From Haloarcula rubra (GTDB lineage: Archaea > Halobacteriota > Halobacteria > Halobacteriales > Haloarculaceae): a DNA stretch of 64,000 nt. The translations under genes were made by a program, and so were the position numbers. Numbering within the stretch: position 1 is the first letter of the stretch; each line of letters opens with the position of its first letter. The stretch spans positions 1 to 64,000 of the forward strand of contig NZ_RKLR01000003.1 of assembly GCF_019599465.1 (NCBI RefSeq), read 5' to 3'. Under the pieces are notes generated by a model that worked only from the letters and a program-made list of their open reading frames with translations, had not been told where the DNA came from and searched no databases. This document shows positions 44,643 to 53,563 of the stretch, one piece after another.

Positions 44643-46295
44643 ATGGAGTTCGCCGCCTTCGCCGACCGCGCCGCCACTATCGAAGCCGAGAGTGCCGACA
44701 CCGCCATCACCGAGTCCGTCACCGACCTGCTGGCCGACGCCGGAGACGACCTCGCGACGCTCGCCCGGTTCGTACAGGGCCGCGTGTTCCCGGCCCACGA
44801 GTCGACCACGCTCGACGTCGGACCACGCCTCTGTTACGAGGCCATCGCCCGCGCCGCCGGGCAGAACGTGAGCGCCGACGACGTGGAGGCACGACTCGCG
44901 GAGACGGGCGAAATCGGCGAGGTGGCCGCGAGCTACGACTTCGGCGGCCAGCGAGGGCTGGCGGCGTTCGGCGGTGGCGGGGCGGACGCGCTCACCGTCG
45001 CCGAAGTCGAGAGGGAACTGACCGACCTCGCTGCCGTCGCCGGCGACGGCAGTCAGGAGACGAAGGTCGACGTCCTCTTCGGCCTGTTCAACCGCTGTGA
45101 CCCCGACGAAGCACGCTATCTCGCTCGACTCGTCCTCTCGGAGATGCGCATCGGCGTGGGCGACGGGACGGTCCGGGACGCCGTGGCCGCGGCGTTCGAC
45201 GTCCCGGTCGACGCCGTCGAACGTGCGTTGCAGGTGTCGAACGACTACGGTTACGTCGCCGAGGTGGCCCGCGACGAGGGCGAGACGGGCCTCGACGCGA
45301 TAGACCTCGAAGTCGGCCGCCCGGTACAGGCGATGCTCGCACAGGCCGGCACCGTCACCGGTGCGCTGGAGGACTGGAACGAGGTGGCCGTCGAGTGGAA
45401 GTACGACGGCGCCCGCGTACAGGTCCACTACGACGGCGAGGCCGCCCGCCTGTTCTCGCGGAACATGGAGGACGTGACCGACCCGCTCCCCGAAGTCGTC
45501 GCCACGGTCGAGGCGTCGCTCGACGCGCCCGCCATCCTCGACGGCGAGGTGGTCGCGGTGGCCGACGACGGCGCGCCGCTCCCGTTCCAGGAGGTGCTCC
45601 GTCGGTTCCGGCGGAAACACGACGTCGCCGCCGCCCGCGAGGACGTCACCGTCCGCCTCCACCTGTTCGACTGTCTGCACGTCGACGGCGAGGACTTACT
45701 CGACGCGTCGCTCCGCGAGCGACACGACCGCCTGGCCGCCCTGTTTGACGACGACGTGGTCTCGGACCTCTGGCTCTCGGCCGACGCCGACGAAATCGGC
45801 GACGTGGAGGCCGAGGCACTCGACGCGGGCCACGAGGGCATCATGCTGAAAGACCCCGAGGCGGCCTACACCCCGGGCAAACGCGGGAAGCACTGGCGCA
45901 AGCGGAAACCGGACGTCGAGACGCTCGACTGCGTCGTGACGGGTGCGGAGTGGGGCGAGGGTCGCCGGGCGAACGTCCTCGGGACGTTCGAACTGTCGGT
46001 CCGGACCGACGACGGATACGCGCAAGTCGGCAACGTCGCCACCGGTATCACCGACGCGGAACTCGACGCGGTGACCGACCGCCTCGAACCGCACGTCACC
46101 GCCGAGGAGGGGCGGAGCGTCGCCATCGCTCCCGAAGTCGTCTTCGAAGTGGGGTACGAGGAGATACAGACGTCGACGACGTACGACTCGGGCTACGCCC
46201 TCCGATTCCCGCGCTTTCTGGCGGTTCGTGAGGACAAGACGCCGGCCGACGCCGACTCGCTCTCTCGGGTCGAACGCCTCGCCGAGAACGCGTGA
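44643..46295 (+). CDS. lig: ATP-dependent DNA ligase
   Basis: The 550-residue protein has an N-terminal helical DNA-binding domain (about 1-225), an adenylation domain with motif I KYDGAR (nucleophile K253), ILDGEVVAVAD, LFDCLHVDGEDLL, EGIMLKDPEAAYTPGKRGKHW, and a C-terminal OB fold (NVLGTFELSVRTDDGYAQVG). It seals nicks in replication and repair and is the normal archaeal replicative ligase. Confidence 0.97.
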   Translation: MEFAAFADRAATIEAESADTAITESVTDLLADAGDDLATLARFVQGRVFPAHESTTLDVGPRLCYEAIARAAGQNVSADDVEARLAETGEIGEVAASYDFGGQRGLAAFGGGGADALTVAEVERELTDLAAVAGDGSQETKVDVLFGLFNRCDPDEARYLARLVLSEMRIGVGDGTVRDAVAAAFDVPVDAVERALQVSNDYGYVAEVARDEGETGLDAIDLEVGRPVQAMLAQAGTVTGALEDWNEVAVEWKYDGARVQVHYDGEAARLFSRNMEDVTDPLPEVVATVEASLDAPAILDGEVVAVADDGAPLPFQEVLRRFRRKHDVAAAREDVTVRLHLFDCLHVDGEDLLDASLRERHDRLAALFDDDVVSDLWLSADADEIGDVEAEALDAGHEGIMLKDPEAAYTPGKRGKHWRKRKPDVETLDCVVTGAEWGEGRRANVLGTFELSVRTDDGYAQVGNVATGITDAELDAVTDRLEPHVTAEEGRSVAIAPEVVFEVGYEEIQTSTTYDSGYALRFPRFLAVREDKTPADADSLSRVERLAENA

Positions 46296-46354
46296 CGGCG
46301 CGCCGACCGGCGCTGACCGACAGTCGTATCCCGTCGGTGACGCTATCCCGCCAC

Positions 46355-47098
46355 ATGACCATCCGACACGACGGCATCACGGCCGAATGGCTCGGTTACG
46401 CCACGCTCAGACTCGAAGGCGACGACACCGTCGTCTACCTCGACCCCGGCCGGTACGGCGTGCTGACCGGCGAATGGGAACCCGATACTCCGGGCGTCGG
46501 ACACCCCGAGACGAGAGACTACGCCCCGAAGGACGGCGACGTCGTCTGTGTCACCCACGTCCACCACTACGATCCGGACGGCATCCGTCGGGTCGCGGCC
46601 GACGACGCCACCGTCGTCGCGTTCGATGGCATCGACGTCCACGCCAGCGACCGCGACCTCGACCGACTCTCGGACCTCGACTACGAGGTTCGGAAGGTCG
46701 GTATGGAGGACGAACTGCTGGTCGACGGCGTCCCTATCTGGACGGTCCCGGCGTACAACCACGAGGACGGGCCGAACGTCGGCGCCGACGGCGAACCCAT
46801 CCATCCGAGGGGCATCGGCTGTGGCTTCCTGCTCGCAATCGACGACACCCGGGTGTTCTGGACGGGCGATACGGACGTTCTCGAAGGCCACGCCGAACTG
46901 GACGTCTCGCTGTTCGTCCCATCTATCTCCCAGAATTTTACGATGGACCGACACGAGGCGGCCGAACTGGCCGAGGCGATGGACCCGGACCTCGTCCTCC
47001 CGATGCACTACAACACGTTCGAGGCACTGGAAGCCGACGACGAAGCGTTCGCGGCCGACGTCGCGAGCAGGCGTGTGCCAGTCGTCCTCGACCGATAG
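46355..47098 (+). CDS. Metallo-beta-lactamase-like metal-dependent hydrolase (UlaG/L-ascorbate lactonase type)
   Basis: I start at ATG 46355 (MTIRHDGITAEWLGYATLRLEG), giving 247 residues; the longer frame is a tail of the ligase region. It shows WLGYATLRLE, THVHHYDPDG in place of the usual HxHxDH (second His and Asp retained), WTGDTDVLEG and PMHYNTFEAL, as in the UlaG-like family. The substrate is unknown. It converges with the ebo-like cluster. Confidence 0.88.
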   Translation: MTIRHDGITAEWLGYATLRLEGDDTVVYLDPGRYGVLTGEWEPDTPGVGHPETRDYAPKDGDVVCVTHVHHYDPDGIRRVAADDATVVAFDGIDVHASDRDLDRLSDLDYEVRKVGMEDELLVDGVPIWTVPAYNHEDGPNVGADGEPIHPRGIGCGFLLAIDDTRVFWTGDTDVLEGHAELDVSLFVPSISQNFTMDRHEAAELAEAMDPDLVLPMHYNTFEALEADDEAFAADVASRRVPVVLDR

Positions 47099-47113: not shown

Positions 47114-47962
47114 TTACAGGTACCGGGCGAGCGCCTCGAAGGACTCCCGGGCGGCCCGGTCGGGTTCGTCGGGATACGTGTACAGTTCCAGCGTGGCGTA
47201 GCCGTCGTACCCGACGTCGTCGAACGCGTCGAATATCGCCCTGAAATCTAGGTCGCCTTCGCCCGGGATTCGGTGGTAGTGCGTCCCACCACGGCCGCCG
47301 ACGATGTCTTCGAGGTGAACGCCGGTGATGTGACCCGCCGCTCGGCGAATCGCCGTGTGGACGTCTTCGCCACTGACGGCGGCGTGGCCGACGTCGAGAT
47401 TGACGCCCAGTCGGTCGTGCCCGACCGCCTCGACGAGTTCGAGTACGTCGTCGGTTTCGCCTACGAGGAGGTCCGGTTCGTACTCGATGCCGACGTCGAC
47501 GCCCTTCTCGTCGGCGTACTCGAGTATCTCCCGTAGCGATTCGTGGAGGAGTCGCTCGGCTTCCGCCGGTTCTGTCCCGGGTACCGGTTGGCCGCTCGTG
47601 AGACTGATAGCCGGTGCCCCCGTCGCCGCGGCGAGGTCTATCGCGCGCTTCGTGTACTCGATGCGCCACCGACGGGCGGAATCGTCGGCGCGAATCACGC
47701 TCGGTTCGAAGAACGGGGTCGGTGGTGCGTCGTCGTAGTACCCCATCGCCGTGTTCGCGTTGACGTTCGCGACTGCGACGTCGACGTCGGCGAGCGCCGT
47801 CGCGAGTCGGTCGATTTCCTGCTCGTCGAACGACGGGAAGTATGCGTGTGGTTCGTCACCCAGTATCTCGACCCCAGCGTATCCGTGGCCTGCGATACGT
47901 TCGACGGCCTCCAGCAGCGAGTAGTCGGTGTAAGCGTTCGTCGAGAACGCGAGGCTGACCAT
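47114..47962 (-). CDS. TIM-barrel sugar-phosphate isomerase/epimerase-like protein A (EboE-like position)
   Basis: I start at ATG 47962 (MVSLAFSTNAYTDYSLLEAVERI), giving 282 residues. It has xylose-isomerase/AP-endonuclease-2 barrel features: metal-type ligands E in GIEYEPDL, D/H in NLDVGHAAVSG, H in GVHLEDI and a terminal E in YATLELYTYP. It is the last gene of the eboB-like operon, 70 bp after the prenyltransferase, and a paralogue of 48956-49786. It would act on a metabolite shared by the cluster. The substrate is unknown. Confidence 0.9.
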   Translation of the reverse strand: MVSLAFSTNAYTDYSLLEAVERIAGHGYAGVEILGDEPHAYFPSFDEQEIDRLATALADVDVAVANVNANTAMGYYDDAPPTPFFEPSVIRADDSARRWRIEYTKRAIDLAAATGAPAISLTSGQPVPGTEPAEAERLLHESLREILEYADEKGVDVGIEYEPDLLVGETDDVLELVEAVGHDRLGVNLDVGHAAVSGEDVHTAIRRAAGHITGVHLEDIVGGRGGTHYHRIPGEGDLDFRAIFDAFDDVGYDGYATLELYTYPDEPDRAARESFEALARYL

Positions 47963-48032
47963 ACCTCCCGTCACGCCTACCTCCGGATAGTTACCAATCA
48001 CGTACCACACGTTAGTGCCGGTCTACAGGTGG

Positions 48033-48965
48033 CTACGAGACGTCGAACGTCCCGGACAACCACCGGGCGACGGCGAAACACGAGAGCGCGGCCCCCGTCC
48101 ACACGAGACCGGCGACTGTCGCGGCGGCGGCCTGCACGACGGCGAGACCGAGGACTGACCGTCCGACCGCGGGCCCGACGACGGACGGCGACGGGTCGTG
48201 GTACGCGGCCACCAGCGGTCGCCCGACGACGGCGAGGAAGGCGACGCCAAGACATCCAGCGATTGCCGACAGGAGTAAATCTGCACCCGCCGCGAACGTT
48301 ACGGCCGGCGGGACGACCGCCAGCATCGTGGCTGCTGCTCCGACGGACGCGATGGCGGTTCGGTTCGCGCCGTGGGCCTCGTCGTCTGCCATCCACGTTA
48401 CGGCGATGACGTACCCCGTGACGACGAGGGGGAGCACGACTTGCCACCACCGTCCCGTGAGCAGTCCACCGCCGACCGTCGTCCCCAGCACCACGTTCGC
48501 GCCGCGAGTCGTCCCCATGACGCTCCACCCGAGTGGTGTCCCCTTCGCCACCCCGTCGTAGAGGACGACGAGGGTCGCCAGCGCCGCCGTCACGACGCCC
48601 GACAGGAAGCCACCGGCCGCGAGTGCGACGGCGACACCACCGACGAGGAGTGCCACACCGAGCACCACCGCTCGACGTCGAGAGACCCGCCCCGCGGGAA
48701 TCGGTCGTTCCGGTCGTTCGACGGCGTCGACGTCGGCGTCGAAGTAGTCGTTCAACGTGGTTCCGCCGGCGTACACGAAGGCCGAGGCCAGCGCCAGTCC
48801 CCCGACTTCGACGGGGCCGAACCGCGCTCCCGATGCGACCGCGAGTGCTGCGCCTGCCAACACGTCGGGTGGGGCCGTGAACACGTTCGGCAGGCGCACG
48901 AGCGCCGCGTACACCAGAATCCGGTCCCTGACGCTGTCACTAGCCGCCCCGGTGGTCAGGCCCAT
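48033..48965 (-). CDS. eboC: UbiA-family prenyltransferase, EboC-like
   Basis: The 310-residue protein has about nine helices. The first aspartate-rich motif is NDYFDADVDAVERPERPIPAGRVSRR; the second region (VTWMADDEAHGANRTA) is weak relative to the usual DxxxD. EboC proteins share the NDxxDxxxDAxERPERPIPSG-type motif and the LVRLPNVFTAPPDVLAG opening, from memory. It overlaps the upstream TIM-barrel gene by 10 nt, so translation is coupled. It probably transfers a prenyl or isoprenoid group to a lipid-like acceptor in the membrane. Confidence 0.85.
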   Translation of the reverse strand: MGLTTGAASDSVRDRILVYAALVRLPNVFTAPPDVLAGAALAVASGARFGPVEVGGLALASAFVYAGGTTLNDYFDADVDAVERPERPIPAGRVSRRRAVVLGVALLVGGVAVALAAGGFLSGVVTAALATLVVLYDGVAKGTPLGWSVMGTTRGANVVLGTTVGGGLLTGRWWQVVLPLVVTGYVIAVTWMADDEAHGANRTAIASVGAAATMLAVVPPAVTFAAGADLLLSAIAGCLGVAFLAVVGRPLVAAYHDPSPSVVGPAVGRSVLGLAVVQAAAATVAGLVWTGAALSCFAVARWLSGTFDVS

Positions 48966-49786
48966 CCGTGGGCTTCGAGGTAGGCCATGGCCTCCTCGGC
49001 CGTCGCGACCGGCGTCTCGCCGTAGGGGTACAGTTCCACGGTCACGAAGCCGTCGTACCCGCTCGCTTCGAGGGCTTCGAGGAACCCGTCGACGTCCATC
49101 GCCCCCTCGCCCAGTTGCGTGTGTTCGTGACTGCGGTCGGCCGGTATGTCCTCGAGGTGGACGTGTTCGACGTAGGGAAGCAGGTCTTCCAGCGCCGTCG
49201 CCGGGTCCTCTCCCACGCAGAAGAGATGTCCGGCGTCGAAGTTACAGCCGACCCTGTCCGAGTCGACCCGGTCCAGCAGGTCGAGGAACTGCGCACTCGT
49301 CTCGACGAGCAGGTCCGGTTCGGGTTCGACCAACACGTCGACGCCGACGTCTTCCGCCCGGTCGGCCAGTTCCCTGAGGCCCTCGACGAACCGGTCTTCG
49401 GCCCACTCGCGTGACTTGCCGTCGGGAATCGGGCCACCCGGTTCGATGGACGCAGTCTCCACGTCGAGGGCCGCCGCGAGCTCCAGTGCGTCGTGCGTGT
49501 AGTCGACGCGGCGTCGTCGGTACGCCTCGTCGGGTTCGACGAACGACGGGTGGTGAAACCCCTCGATAGCCGTCAGCATGAACGCGTTCGCGTTACTGAC
49601 GGCGATATCTGCGTCGGCGAGCGTCTCGCGAACCTCGTCGAGGTCCGCCTCAGTCGCCGTCTCGGGGTAGAGGTGTGGCTCGTCGAACAGTAACTCGACG
49701 CCGTCGTAGCCGGCGGCCGCGACGTGGTCGATGGCGTCGGGCAGACTGTACTCGCGGAACGCGTTGGTAGAGAATCCGAACTGCAT
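48956..49786 (-). CDS. TIM-barrel sugar-phosphate isomerase/epimerase-like protein B (EboE-like position)
   Basis: The 276-residue protein begins MQFGFSTNAFREYSLPDAIDHVAAAGYDGVELLFDEPHLYPE and has barrel ligand segments VDVLVEPEPDL, NFDAGHLFCVG, HVHLEDIPADR and FVTVELYPYG. It is clearly paralogous to 47114-47962 (same blocks, same length). It lies between eboB-like (1 bp gap) and eboC-like (10-nt overlap) genes. In the bacterial ebo cluster this role is filled by EboE, a TIM-barrel protein that is usually longer, so exact orthology is uncertain. Confidence 0.9.
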   Translation of the reverse strand: MQFGFSTNAFREYSLPDAIDHVAAAGYDGVELLFDEPHLYPETATEADLDEVRETLADADIAVSNANAFMLTAIEGFHHPSFVEPDEAYRRRRVDYTHDALELAAALDVETASIEPGGPIPDGKSREWAEDRFVEGLRELADRAEDVGVDVLVEPEPDLLVETSAQFLDLLDRVDSDRVGCNFDAGHLFCVGEDPATALEDLLPYVEHVHLEDIPADRSHEHTQLGEGAMDVDGFLEALEASGYDGFVTVELYPYGETPVATAEEAMAYLEAHGWA

Positions 49787-49787
49787 G

Positions 49788-50588
49788 TTAGCGGGAGTAC
49801 TCGAAGTTCGGCGATTGGTCGAAGAACTCGTAGGGGTTCTCGAAGACGACCTGCCGGACCGTCTCGCGGTCCCAACCCCGGTCTAGCATCTCGTCGCGCG
49901 CCCTCGGGACGGCGAGCGGGTCGGACGGATCCCAGTCGGCCGCGCTGTTGAGTATCATCTTCTCCGTCCCGTAGGCTTCGAGCAGGTCGATAGCATCGTC
50001 GACCGCTATCTTCCCGGGATAGAGCGTGAAACCGAGCCAACAGTCCGTCTCGAGCGCGGTGTCGATGGTTCGCTCGGTGTTGTGGTCGATGATGATTCGT
50101 TCCTGTGTGACGCCTTCGTCTTCGATCATATCGACGATTCGGCGCGTCCCTTCGGGCTTGTTCTCGTGGGGGGTGTGGACGATGACTGGCAGTTCCCGCT
50201 CGTCGGCGATTCGGAGTTGTTTGCGGAAGGCCCACTCCTCGTCCTCGGTGTCCTGGTCGAGGCCGATTTCGCCGACGCCGACCACCGGGTCCCGGTCGAG
50301 GTACTCCGGGAGGCGTTCGAGCACCGTCTCGGCCATCTCCCGGTAGTTCGCTTCCTTCGGTTCGAGGCCGATAGTGACGTAGTGGTCCATACCCGCCACG
50401 CGCTCCGCGCGCCGTGTCTCGTGGCCGATTATCTGCTCGAAGTAGTCGAAGAACGCGCCGGCGTTGTGCTTGTCCTGCCCGCTCCAGAAGGCCGGTTCGA
50501 TACAGCACTCGATGCCCGCACGTCTGGCGCGCTCGTAGTCGTCGGTCGAGCGCGACACCATGTGCATGTGTGGGTCGATGATTCGCAT
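49788..50588 (-). CDS. eboB: TatD-family metal-dependent hydrolase, EboB-like
   Basis: The start is ATG 50588 (MRIIDPHMHMVSRSTDDYERA), giving 266 residues. The amidohydrolase-type metal sites are DPHMHM, GEIGLD, VIVHTPH and IIIDHN. Segments AFWSGQDKHNAGAFFDYFEQI, TIGLEPKEANYREM and MILNSAADWDPSDPLAVPRA are strongly reminiscent of EboB rather than of generic TatD nucleases. It leads the minus-strand operon eboB-TIM B-eboC-TIM A. Confidence 0.9.
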   Translation of the reverse strand: MRIIDPHMHMVSRSTDDYERARRAGIECCIEPAFWSGQDKHNAGAFFDYFEQIIGHETRRAERVAGMDHYVTIGLEPKEANYREMAETVLERLPEYLDRDPVVGVGEIGLDQDTEDEEWAFRKQLRIADERELPVIVHTPHENKPEGTRRIVDMIEDEGVTQERIIIDHNTERTIDTALETDCWLGFTLYPGKIAVDDAIDLLEAYGTEKMILNSAADWDPSDPLAVPRARDEMLDRGWDRETVRQVVFENPYEFFDQSPNFEYSR

Positions 50589-50849
50589 CGCTGGAGCCGA
50601 CGGCACACCCGCATGAAGTTATTCTCCGTGTACGTCCTAGTTACTTACAGAATAGACACACTAACTAAACACCGGTCGCCCGACGATACCGACGTTCCGG
50701 GGGTTAGACAGTATGTACGAACCCGTCGCCAGGCCCGTCTCCGGCCACCGTCCCGTCGAATCGACCGAACCGACTCACGTTCGTCTCCGCACTCCGTCGG
50801 CGCCGAACAGTTCGACAGTCGAGGGGTCACTCTCTCTGCGGGGGCGACC
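50589..50849. promoter_or_regulatory. Divergent promoter region between eboB-like and eboF-like genes
   Basis: This 261-bp gap has an AT-rich core (about 50637-50670) with CTAGTTACTTAC and ACTAACTAAAC, in which AGTTA repeats in both orientations, in otherwise G+C-rich sequence. It probably holds both divergent promoters and perhaps a shared operator. No gene is evident; the in-frame extension of eboF here has poor composition. Confidence 0.45.
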
Positions 50850-52244
50850 GTGACCGTCTCGACGCCGGCCGGTCGGGTTATCGTACTGGACGTGGTTGGC
50901 CTCCAGCCGTCCCACCTCGACGCTGCACCGAACATCAGCCGTCTCGTCGGCGGCCCGGAGGCACCCTCGACTGCTCGGCTCCGTCCGCCGTTCCCGGCCG
51001 TCACCGTCACGAGTCAGACGACGCTCGCGACTGGACAGTCCCCCGCCGACCACGGCGACGTGGCGAACGGCCACTACGACCGCGAGAGCGACACGGTGAC
51101 GTTCTGGGGTCGAGAGCGGGGTGACCGGACTCGGCTCTGGGAGTCGGCCAGCGACGCCGGCGCGACGACCGGCGTCCTGTTCTTCCAGCATCTCGTCGGC
51201 ACGAACGCCGACGTCGCGGTGACGCCCTCGCCTATCGAGGACGAGAACAACGACATGCTAGAGATGAACTGCTGGACGAATCCCGACGGCTTCTACGACG
51301 CCCTCGAAGCGGAACACGGTCACTTCCCCCTGCATCGCTACTGGGGACCCGGGGCGAACGCGGAGAGTAGCGAGTGGATTCTGACGGCCGCCACCGAGGC
51401 CGTCGACCGGTACGACCCGGACTTGCTCTGGGTGTACCTCCCACATCTCGACTACGACGCCCAGCGTTACGGGCCGTCTTCCGACGAGGTGACTGTTGCC
51501 GTCGAAACGGTGGACGAGATGGTCGGGTCGTTCCTCACACACCTCCGAGCGACCGATAGATGGGGCGAGACGGCGGTCGCAGTCCTGAGCGAGTACGGTT
51601 TCCACGACGTCGACAGCCCTGTGTTCCCGAACAGAGTACTGGCCCGTGAGGGCTATCTGACCGTCGGCGCGGACGGAGACGTCGACCTCCCGGACTCGGA
51701 CGCGTTCGCCGTCGTGGACCATCAGGTCGGCCACGTGTACGCCGACCGGCGGGTACGGGGCGCGGTCAGAGACGAACTCGCGGGACTCGACGGCGTCGAT
51801 ACCGTCCTCGGAGACGCGGAGAAACGCGCCTTGGGAATCGACCACCCCGACGCCGGCGACTTCGTCCTCGTCGCGGACGAATCGGCGTGGTTCCAGTACT
51901 ACTGGTGGGAGCGAGACGGCCGAACCCCTCCGTACGCGACCGACGTCGACATCCACGACAAGCCGGGGTTCGACCCCTGTGAATTGTTCCTCGGCGACGA
52001 GGGGATGGTCTCGATGGACCCCTCGCTCGTCGGCGGGTCCCACGGGCGCGTCGACCCGGAGACGATGGGCATCTTCGCACTCGGTGGTCCCGCCACGCCG
52101 ACGCCGTCGGTCGGAGACCCGGTGGACGCGCGCGCCGTCGCCCCGTCCCTCGCGGACCTAGTCGACGTACGAGCCCACTTGCCGAGCCATCTGACCGGAC
52201 GGTCGGTGTTCGACGACGAGCGGGACGGCTCCAAAACCGACTGA
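50850..52244 (+). CDS. eboF: Alkaline phosphatase-superfamily protein, EboF-like
   Basis: I start at GTG 50850 (VTVSTPAGRVIVLDVVGLQPSHL), giving 464 residues. It has the phosphodiesterase/phosphatase superfamily layout: Asp in VIVLDVVG, the nucleophile region PPFPAVTVTSQTTLATG, LLWVYLPHLDYDAQRYGP, and DHQVGHVY. The canonical SDHG metal motif is replaced by SEYGF. ADESAWFQYYWW and VDIHDKPGFDPCELFL near residues 350-390 match EboF as I remember it. It is divergent from the eboB-like operon. The likely role is removal of a phosphate or nucleotide from a trafficked metabolite; no signal peptide is seen. Confidence 0.88.
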   Translation: MTVSTPAGRVIVLDVVGLQPSHLDAAPNISRLVGGPEAPSTARLRPPFPAVTVTSQTTLATGQSPADHGDVANGHYDRESDTVTFWGRERGDRTRLWESASDAGATTGVLFFQHLVGTNADVAVTPSPIEDENNDMLEMNCWTNPDGFYDALEAEHGHFPLHRYWGPGANAESSEWILTAATEAVDRYDPDLLWVYLPHLDYDAQRYGPSSDEVTVAVETVDEMVGSFLTHLRATDRWGETAVAVLSEYGFHDVDSPVFPNRVLAREGYLTVGADGDVDLPDSDAFAVVDHQVGHVYADRRVRGAVRDELAGLDGVDTVLGDAEKRALGIDHPDAGDFVLVADESAWFQYYWWERDGRTPPYATDVDIHDKPGFDPCELFLGDEGMVSMDPSLVGGSHGRVDPETMGIFALGGPATPTPSVGDPVDARAVAPSLADLVDVRAHLPSHLTGRSVFDDERDGSKTD

Positions 52245-52459: not shown

Positions 52460-53563
52460 TCAGAGGACGCCCATCTCCGTCAACCGTTCGGGCAGGTAGG
52501 TGTCGGTGACGAAGTCGAGGCCCCGCGAGGCGAGCGCCTGCTGTTCGGCCTTCTTCCCGATGTCGAGCTGGAGTTCTATCTGCTCTCTCCAGAAGTCCGT
52601 CTGGAAGCGCGGGTCCTCCAGTTCGGACTCCAGCGCGTTGACGTCCGAGTCGGACAGGGGGTCCGTCGGCAGGTCGTACTCCACGATGTCGGCCGGCCGG
52701 ATGCCGACGAACTGCGCCGCCGGCGTCGCCAGATACTCCGAGAGGTGGGCCGACTTGATAGAACCGTACGCGACGGAACCGTAGATGCGGTACGACCACG
52801 GGTCACCGTCGGTGAACACCACGACCGGCAGGTCGAGTTCGTCGTGGAGTCGCTTGGTGATGCGCCGGGTCGCCCGTGCGGGCTGGCCCTTGAGGTGGAC
52901 GACGATGACGTTGTACTCCTCGTCGAAGCCGTTCTCGACCAGTCGGTCGCGCATGCCACCGGTCTCCACGCAGAGGACGAAGTCGGCGTCGTTCTCTAAG
53001 AACTCGATGGTGTCGGGGTTGTTCGGAATCTGGTAGCCGCCCTCGCCGACGTCTTTCTGACAGTGGATCTCGCGTTCGCCCCGGCGGGTCTGCTCGCGGA
53101 GTTTCAGGGGCCCCATGATGGTCGCCCCGGACTCCTCTGGGCGCATGTGGAAGTCCTCGCGGGTGACTTCCGAGACGATCTCCAGGTCCTCGACGAGGTC
53201 GTTTGACTCGTCCTGACTGTTGAACTGCGCCGCTTCGAGGTCCCACGACTCCGAGAGGTAGTACAGTTCACGCAGGGTCGACGAGCGGTCCTCTTCGAGT
53301 TGCTGGGCGAGGAAGTCGATGGTGTAGGTCGCCTTCAGGAGCTTCTCGGCCCCGGAGACGGTCTTGGCCGACCGCGTGGAGGTGCGGTCGCCGTACACCC
53401 AGACGTCCTTGTCCTCGTCGTACTCGATGTTGGACTTCGTCCGGGTGGGAATCGTCATCGTCGGGACGTCCCCGTCGGCGAACTGGTCGTAGAACTCGGC
53501 CGCGAGGTCGATGAGTTTCTCGCGGGCCTCCTCGCTGTCTGGTGTGGTACTCTCTGAACTCAT
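52460..53563 (-). CDS. top6A: DNA topoisomerase VI subunit A
   Basis: The 367-residue protein has the Spo11-type 5Y-CAP domain with the catalytic tyrosine in [14 protein letters not shown] (Y101/Y102) and a Toprim domain ([38 protein letters not shown]). It cleaves double-stranded DNA as the A2B2 heterotetramer to relax and decatenate. It follows top6B with a 1-bp gap, so they form one operon. Confidence 0.97.

Follow-up and report, generated by a model that had tools for sequence, protein, structure and literature searches.

We analyzed a 64,000-nucleotide stretch of DNA from the haloarchaeon Haloarcula rubra (contig NZ_RKLR01000003.1, positions 1 to 64,000; hereafter, the window) in which five adjacent genes resemble the ebo cluster, a gene set found in algal plastids and across many phyla of bacteria, for which we know of no product. 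Starts and ends of open reading frames (ORFs) were reassessed in the window, domains were assigned with Pfam and families with NCBIfam (Table 1). The ORFs confirmed the layout given by the original prediction, i.e., four tightly packed genes on the minus strand and a divergent fifth, and the spacing it listed (a 1-bp gap, a 10-nt overlap, and a 70-bp gap) proved exact. Likely starts lie inside the raw ORFs of TIM1 (47114-48010, start 47962), EboB (49788-50606, ATG at 50588), and EboF; for the last, a GTG at 50850 was preferred over the raw start at 50082 because the latter overlaps the divergent gene. No foreign base composition was found in the cluster, where G+C content is 0.64-0.70 throughout.

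Table 1. Features of the ebo-related locus and its flanks (window coordinates).
Feature	Position	Strand	Basis or remark
TIM1, short xylose-isomerase-like TIM barrel, last gene of the operon	47114..47962	-	PF01261 (AP_endonuc_2), 7e-44
EboC-like UbiA-superfamily prenyltransferase	48033..48965	-	NCBIfam EboC NF035940, 190.9 bits (curated cut-off 250); Pfam UbiA, 4e-22
TIM2, second short TIM barrel, paralogue of TIM1 (40% identity)	48956..49786	-	PF01261 (AP_endonuc_2), 2e-50
EboB orthologue, TatD/amidohydrolase superfamily	49788..50606	-	Identity to bacterial EboB; Pfam TatD, 4e-18
Divergent intergenic region without INO1	50607..50849	.	Place of INO1 in most relatives
EboF orthologue, NPP/alkaline-phosphatase superfamily, divergent	50850..52244	+	Identity and motifs; Pfam Phosphodiest, 2e-46
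Flank, not a cluster member: metallo-beta-lactamase-fold hydrolase	46292..47098	+	Just upstream of top6A in cluster-less Haloarcula loci
Flank, not a cluster member: topoisomerase VI subunit A (top6A)	52460..53563	-	Other edge of the empty site

By family assignment, the cluster is almost certainly related to ebo. Its EboB is 44-46% identical over 95-97% of the length to EboB of Bacteroidota, Actinomycetota, Pseudomonadota, and Deinococcota, whereas its identity to the ordinary TatD proteins of haloarchaea is no more than about 25-29%. It is 96% identical to EboB of Haloarcula pellucida, the nearest named genome. Among Halobacteriota outside the Halobacteria, no true EboB was found, only relatives resembling AF_1765 at 28-37% identity; such proteins are common in the non-halophilic members (matches in G312-G576), and, among solved structures, AF_1765 itself (PDB 3guw) comes nearest to EboB. 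For the prenyltransferase, EboC was the top-ranking NCBIfam model, although below its curated cut-off (Table 1), and was followed by the SCO3242 family at 162.6 bits. An SCO3242-type prenyltransferase of Streptomyces reached only 110 bits on the EboC model. Seven further UbiA proteins encoded in the genome were scanned, and neither model was matched by any of them at 1e-10. The EboC-like protein retains the Asp-rich motifs NDxxD and YDxxxK, and its nearest solved relative is digeranylgeranylglyceryl phosphate synthase. EboF is 32-44% identical to bacterial EboF. In a comparison of 37 EboF proteins from haloarchaea and 72 from bacteria, little or no variation was seen in the EY of SEYG, in the H-K-PG-DP block, or in GSHG. 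The homology to EboB, EboC, and EboF proposed in the original prediction is thus supported by identity, model ranking, and motifs, respectively, and the sequence blocks that it had recognized (SEYGF, YYWW, HDKPGFDP, and ERPERPIP) likewise vary little or not at all among the Ebo proteins of haloarchaea and bacteria, the substitutions that occur being typical of the families. The predicted structure of EboF (pLDDT 80) matches ENPP6 and Xac NPP. In an alignment with ENPP2, EboF proteins, those of bacteria included, have Q or L in place of a histidine that binds zinc and E-Y in place of the D-H pair. Since several canonical metal ligands of the superfamily are lacking, the label "phosphatase" should be read with caution, and the usual phosphodiesterase annotation of this family in bacteria and archaea may be wrong.

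The original prediction had also remarked on the absence of EboA and EboD from the window, and this held for the whole genome, where neither EboD-type proteins (PF01761; matched in 11 of 14 control genomes) nor EboA (NF035938; matched in three control records) were found. A custom hidden Markov model of EboA matched none of 43 haloarchaeal loci and dozens of bacterial ones, and phmmer found no EboG in the haloarchaeal loci; Gemmatirosa has one. TIM1 and TIM2 were considered as candidates for EboE and rejected, with 23.8 and 30 bits on NF035939 (cut-off 250) and positions apart from the EboE clade in a phylogenetic tree. Because EboA, EboD, and EboE were each sought and not found, the locus is not a canonical ebo operon. 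Both proteins are instead related to the short TIM barrel of clusters that carry inositol-3-phosphate synthase (INO1), which are described below, and TIM1 forms one clade with TIM1 of bacterium R3-B46 (support 100/97). The predicted structure of TIM2 (pLDDT 93) matches the D-tagatose 3-epimerase-like protein MJ1311 (Z 31.7, root-mean-square deviation 2.0 over 257 residues). In the TIM2 alignment, E154, D184, and E251 are invariant and H210 is retained in haloarchaeal rows; by our own reading of it, TIM2 probably keeps the metal ligands expected of the superfamily.

Neighborhoods from 38 other haloarchaeal genomes have EboF and INO1 on one strand and EboB, TIM2, EboC, and TIM1 on the other, with INO1 usually flanked by EboF and EboB. 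The same arrangement, INO1 included, is seen in the annotated records of Halocatena salina and Halobaculum salinum, while Natronococcus sp. CG52 possesses all six genes in a different order. The order EboB-TIM2-EboC-TIM1 repeats in nearly all of ~40 other haloarchaeal genomes and therefore reflects more than chance adjacency, bearing out the conserved co-occurrence across Halobacteria on which the original prediction depended. Although TatD and TIM-barrel proteins are common, the idea that unrelated sugar-metabolism genes merely came to lie side by side has practically no probability, since it is refuted by synteny, order and content being conserved in these genomes and in bacteria. EboB is spread patchily (39 of 293 Halobacteriales genomes), and INO1 was present in 36 of the 39 EboB-positive genomes vs. 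3 of the 254 EboB-negative ones (Fisher p about 4e-39), counts and a test that ignore kinship between genomes. INO1 is present and unlinked to EboB in G077, G093, and G036, adjoining EboF in the first two. A second INO1 subclade, unlinked to ebo, explains the three EboB-negative cases and G086; INO1 of the cluster type would then amount to 35 of 39 vs. 0 of 254, although the tree does not include every copy. Members of this second subclade lie at L175-L180 (G086, G102, G190, G264, G118, and G181). The cluster INO1 resembles the myo-inositol-1-phosphate synthase of A. fulgidus (1u1i; E 1e-79). The haloarchaeal set, i.e., INO1, EboF, EboB, EboC, and two short TIM barrels with no EboA, EboD, or EboE, is a third ebo architecture. 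The cyclase that the original prediction reported as missing is indeed missing as far as EboD is concerned, but relatives have INO1 instead, and it was secondarily lost in the lineage of the window. Haloferax volcanii was the only one of 14 control genomes to match the EboE profile and also matched that of INO1; its INO1 homologue is given as HVO_B0213 (PMC8305020). As a lead only, this species may carry the cluster.

In a bacterial sample of 80 GTDB loci plus plasmid records, the short TIM barrel occurred in none of 31 EboD-type loci and in 27 of 28 INO1-type loci, and no locus had both cyclases. Since the INO1-type loci are mostly actinobacterial, few independent events are represented; the pairing of INO1 with a short TIM barrel is repeated in haloarchaea, Gemmatirosa, and bacterium R3-B46. 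Two Streptomyces lacking INO1 in the cluster carry an INO1 of that type elsewhere in the genome. The actinobacterial order, Streptomyces included, is INO1, SCO3242 prenyltransferase, short TIM barrel, EboA, EboB, EboE, EboF. Two plasmids merit separate mention. In that of Streptomyces camelliae, a gene annotated as ScyD/ScyE family (L082:2096-3298), a name taken from the scytonemin system, lies directly upstream of an INO1-type ebo cluster, and in that of Gloeothece verrucosa (L080), eboB and eboD adjoin with no other ebo genes within 14.8 kb.

Compared with the eboA-F operon (PMC5133447; PMC6282210), the haloarchaeal cluster shares orthologues of EboB and EboF, a probable orthologue of EboC, and, in most relatives, a cyclitol-forming cyclase; it differs in its archaeal host, its two short TIM barrels, the lack of EboA, EboD, and EboE, and the use of INO1 as the cyclase in most haloarchaea. 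The eboG-type operon of Deinococcus and others (PMC5133447) likewise lacks EboA but has EboD, EboE, and EboG, the last of which was not found in haloarchaeal loci. Actinobacterial SCO3242-type clusters are similar in INO1 (45% identity), UbiA, the short TIM barrel (30-32%), EboB, and EboF, but retain EboA and EboE and possess a single short TIM barrel where haloarchaea have two. Closest in content is the cluster of bacterium R3-B46 (JAHDNF010000012.1; L107/L223), with exactly the six haloarchaeal families, although it belongs to a bacterium of a sparsely sampled class, the gene order differs, and its INO1-EboF pair lies about 6.7 kb from the rest. A second member of that class (three genomes sampled) has TIM1-EboB-TIM2 (L224, G593). 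In the EboB tree, haloarchaeal proteins group with the EboA-less types, close to Deinococcus and Gemmatirosa, and the branches in this region, where R3-B46 also falls, are long and do not fix the donor of the haloarchaeal cluster; the R3-B46 class is a possible link in a transfer between domains.

Of the INO1-type variant, the genome of the window has the short TIM barrels but not INO1, which is also absent from H. pellucida, Haladaptatus pallidirubidus (G194), and G078. The cluster lies between the metallo-beta-lactamase-fold gene and top6A; in 15 other Haloarcula loci, the former lies directly upstream of the latter, at an interval too short for the cluster (55 bp in L194), and among the 30 loci read, drawn from 32 genomes of the genus, just 2 have EboF adjoining top6A. 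Relative to H. pellucida, synonymous divergence (dS) of the five genes (0.31-0.44) is like that of the flanks (0.30-0.36), which, together with the distribution of the occupied site, fits one gain before the two lineages split. The window lineage has lost INO1 and retains the other five genes. Since INO1 is gone, the remaining genes might be a decaying remnant; however, all five frames are intact, and their ratios of nonsynonymous to synonymous substitution (dN/dS) relative to H. pellucida are 0.05-0.40 (EboC being fastest at 0.40), indicating that the INO1-less cluster is kept by purifying selection. In three separate groups, clusters that lack INO1 still have the full set of five remaining genes, and we consider decay quite improbable. 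ABC transporter genes lie near the clusters of Haladaptatus pallidirubidus (L189) and Halocatena salina (L086), and L189, an INO1-less case, additionally has a Gfo/Idh/MocA oxidoreductase and a further sugar isomerase; the transporter genes at L189 would fit cyclitol uptake.

From INO1, the TIM metal site, the EboC motifs, and the EboF fold, we infer a pathway in which a cyclitol is prepared and then prenylated at the membrane. In most relatives, INO1 would convert glucose 6-phosphate to inositol 1-phosphate in the place of EboD, as its family suggests. The two TIM barrels, with their E-D-H-E metal site, would isomerize or epimerize the cyclitol or its keto form, and EboB may hydrolyze or rearrange an intermediate. 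EboC, a membrane enzyme, would add the prenyl chain, which in an archaeon is probably geranylgeranyl, while EboF, an NPP fold with an altered metal site, might bind or process a phosphate-bearing intermediate. Such a pathway would yield a membrane metabolite derived from a cyclitol and prenylated, which might act as a carrier; the phosphorylation that the original prediction ascribed to the product is conjectural. Since INO1 was lost in the window's Haloarcula lineage, the pathway there would depend on a cyclitol taken up or obtained in some other way. We hold this INO1-type pathway tentatively, with slightly less than even confidence. A broader proposal has about the same standing: that EboD and archaeal-type INO1, unrelated cyclases, replace each other, each with its own set of TIM barrels; that all ebo pathways, whether in cyanobacteria, algal plastids, actinobacteria, or haloarchaea, may make prenylated cyclitols; and that some haloarchaea, including that of the window, may use scavenged inositol. 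No mention of inositol was found in the main ebo papers, and the open-access literature, to which the search was confined, yielded no account of ebo genes in archaea or of an ebo cluster with INO1.

Several observations weigh against a cyclitol pathway, beginning with the window's own genome, from which both INO1 and EboD are absent. Many different activities occur among TIM barrels of this superfamily, and the structure matches do not point to inositol enzymes specifically; the co-occurrence statistics carry the reservation about kinship given above. In addition, UbiA-297, an EboC-type enzyme of marine bacteria, farnesylates quinolines in vitro, e.g., 8-hydroxyquinoline-2-carboxylic acid and quinaldic acid, and no cyclitol acceptor has been reported for it (PMC9235831). 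EboC could therefore prenylate an aromatic or quinoline-like acceptor, with the cyclitol from INO1 or EboD serving a separate moiety or a later step, which would agree with the need for the ebo cluster in the making of scytonemin, an indole alkaloid (PMC6282210). However, the native acceptor was never identified, a cyclitol cyclase is part of the ebo types, and each kind of cyclase goes with a specific TIM barrel; we regard an aromatic acceptor as unlikely, though it is the strongest rival to a prenylated cyclitol. An export module, in which a prenyl-linked carrier moves another molecule across the membrane, overlaps with the pathway that we propose. The Nostoc cluster has been implicated in the export of scytonemin precursors to the periplasm, the role of ebo in traffic resting on cyanobacterial knock-outs (PMC6282210), and EboC belongs to a membrane enzyme family. 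This explanation seems less probable still, since flanking genes vary between haloarchaeal genera with no common cargo pathway, and EboA, the proposed organizer of the complex, is absent. Finally, haloarchaeal polar lipids with a headgroup derived from myo-inositol are known, their pathway being partly resolved (PMC8305020), and the kinship of EboC with digeranylgeranylglyceryl phosphate synthase would suit a lipid with an inositol headgroup made by a route related to archaetidylinositol synthesis. We give this little credence, however, since the cluster is patchily distributed, no CDP-alcohol transferase is among its conserved genes, and archaeal lipids are not expected in the bacterial relatives.

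If INO1 truly stands in for EboD, inositol 1-phosphate, which a well-studied enzyme produces, would reveal the class of molecule that enters the pathway, and labelled inositol would be a direct probe of it. The haloarchaeal clusters also extend to archaea a pathway that has been described for bacteria and plastids, and the organisms concerned have a membrane prenyl chemistry that is tractable.

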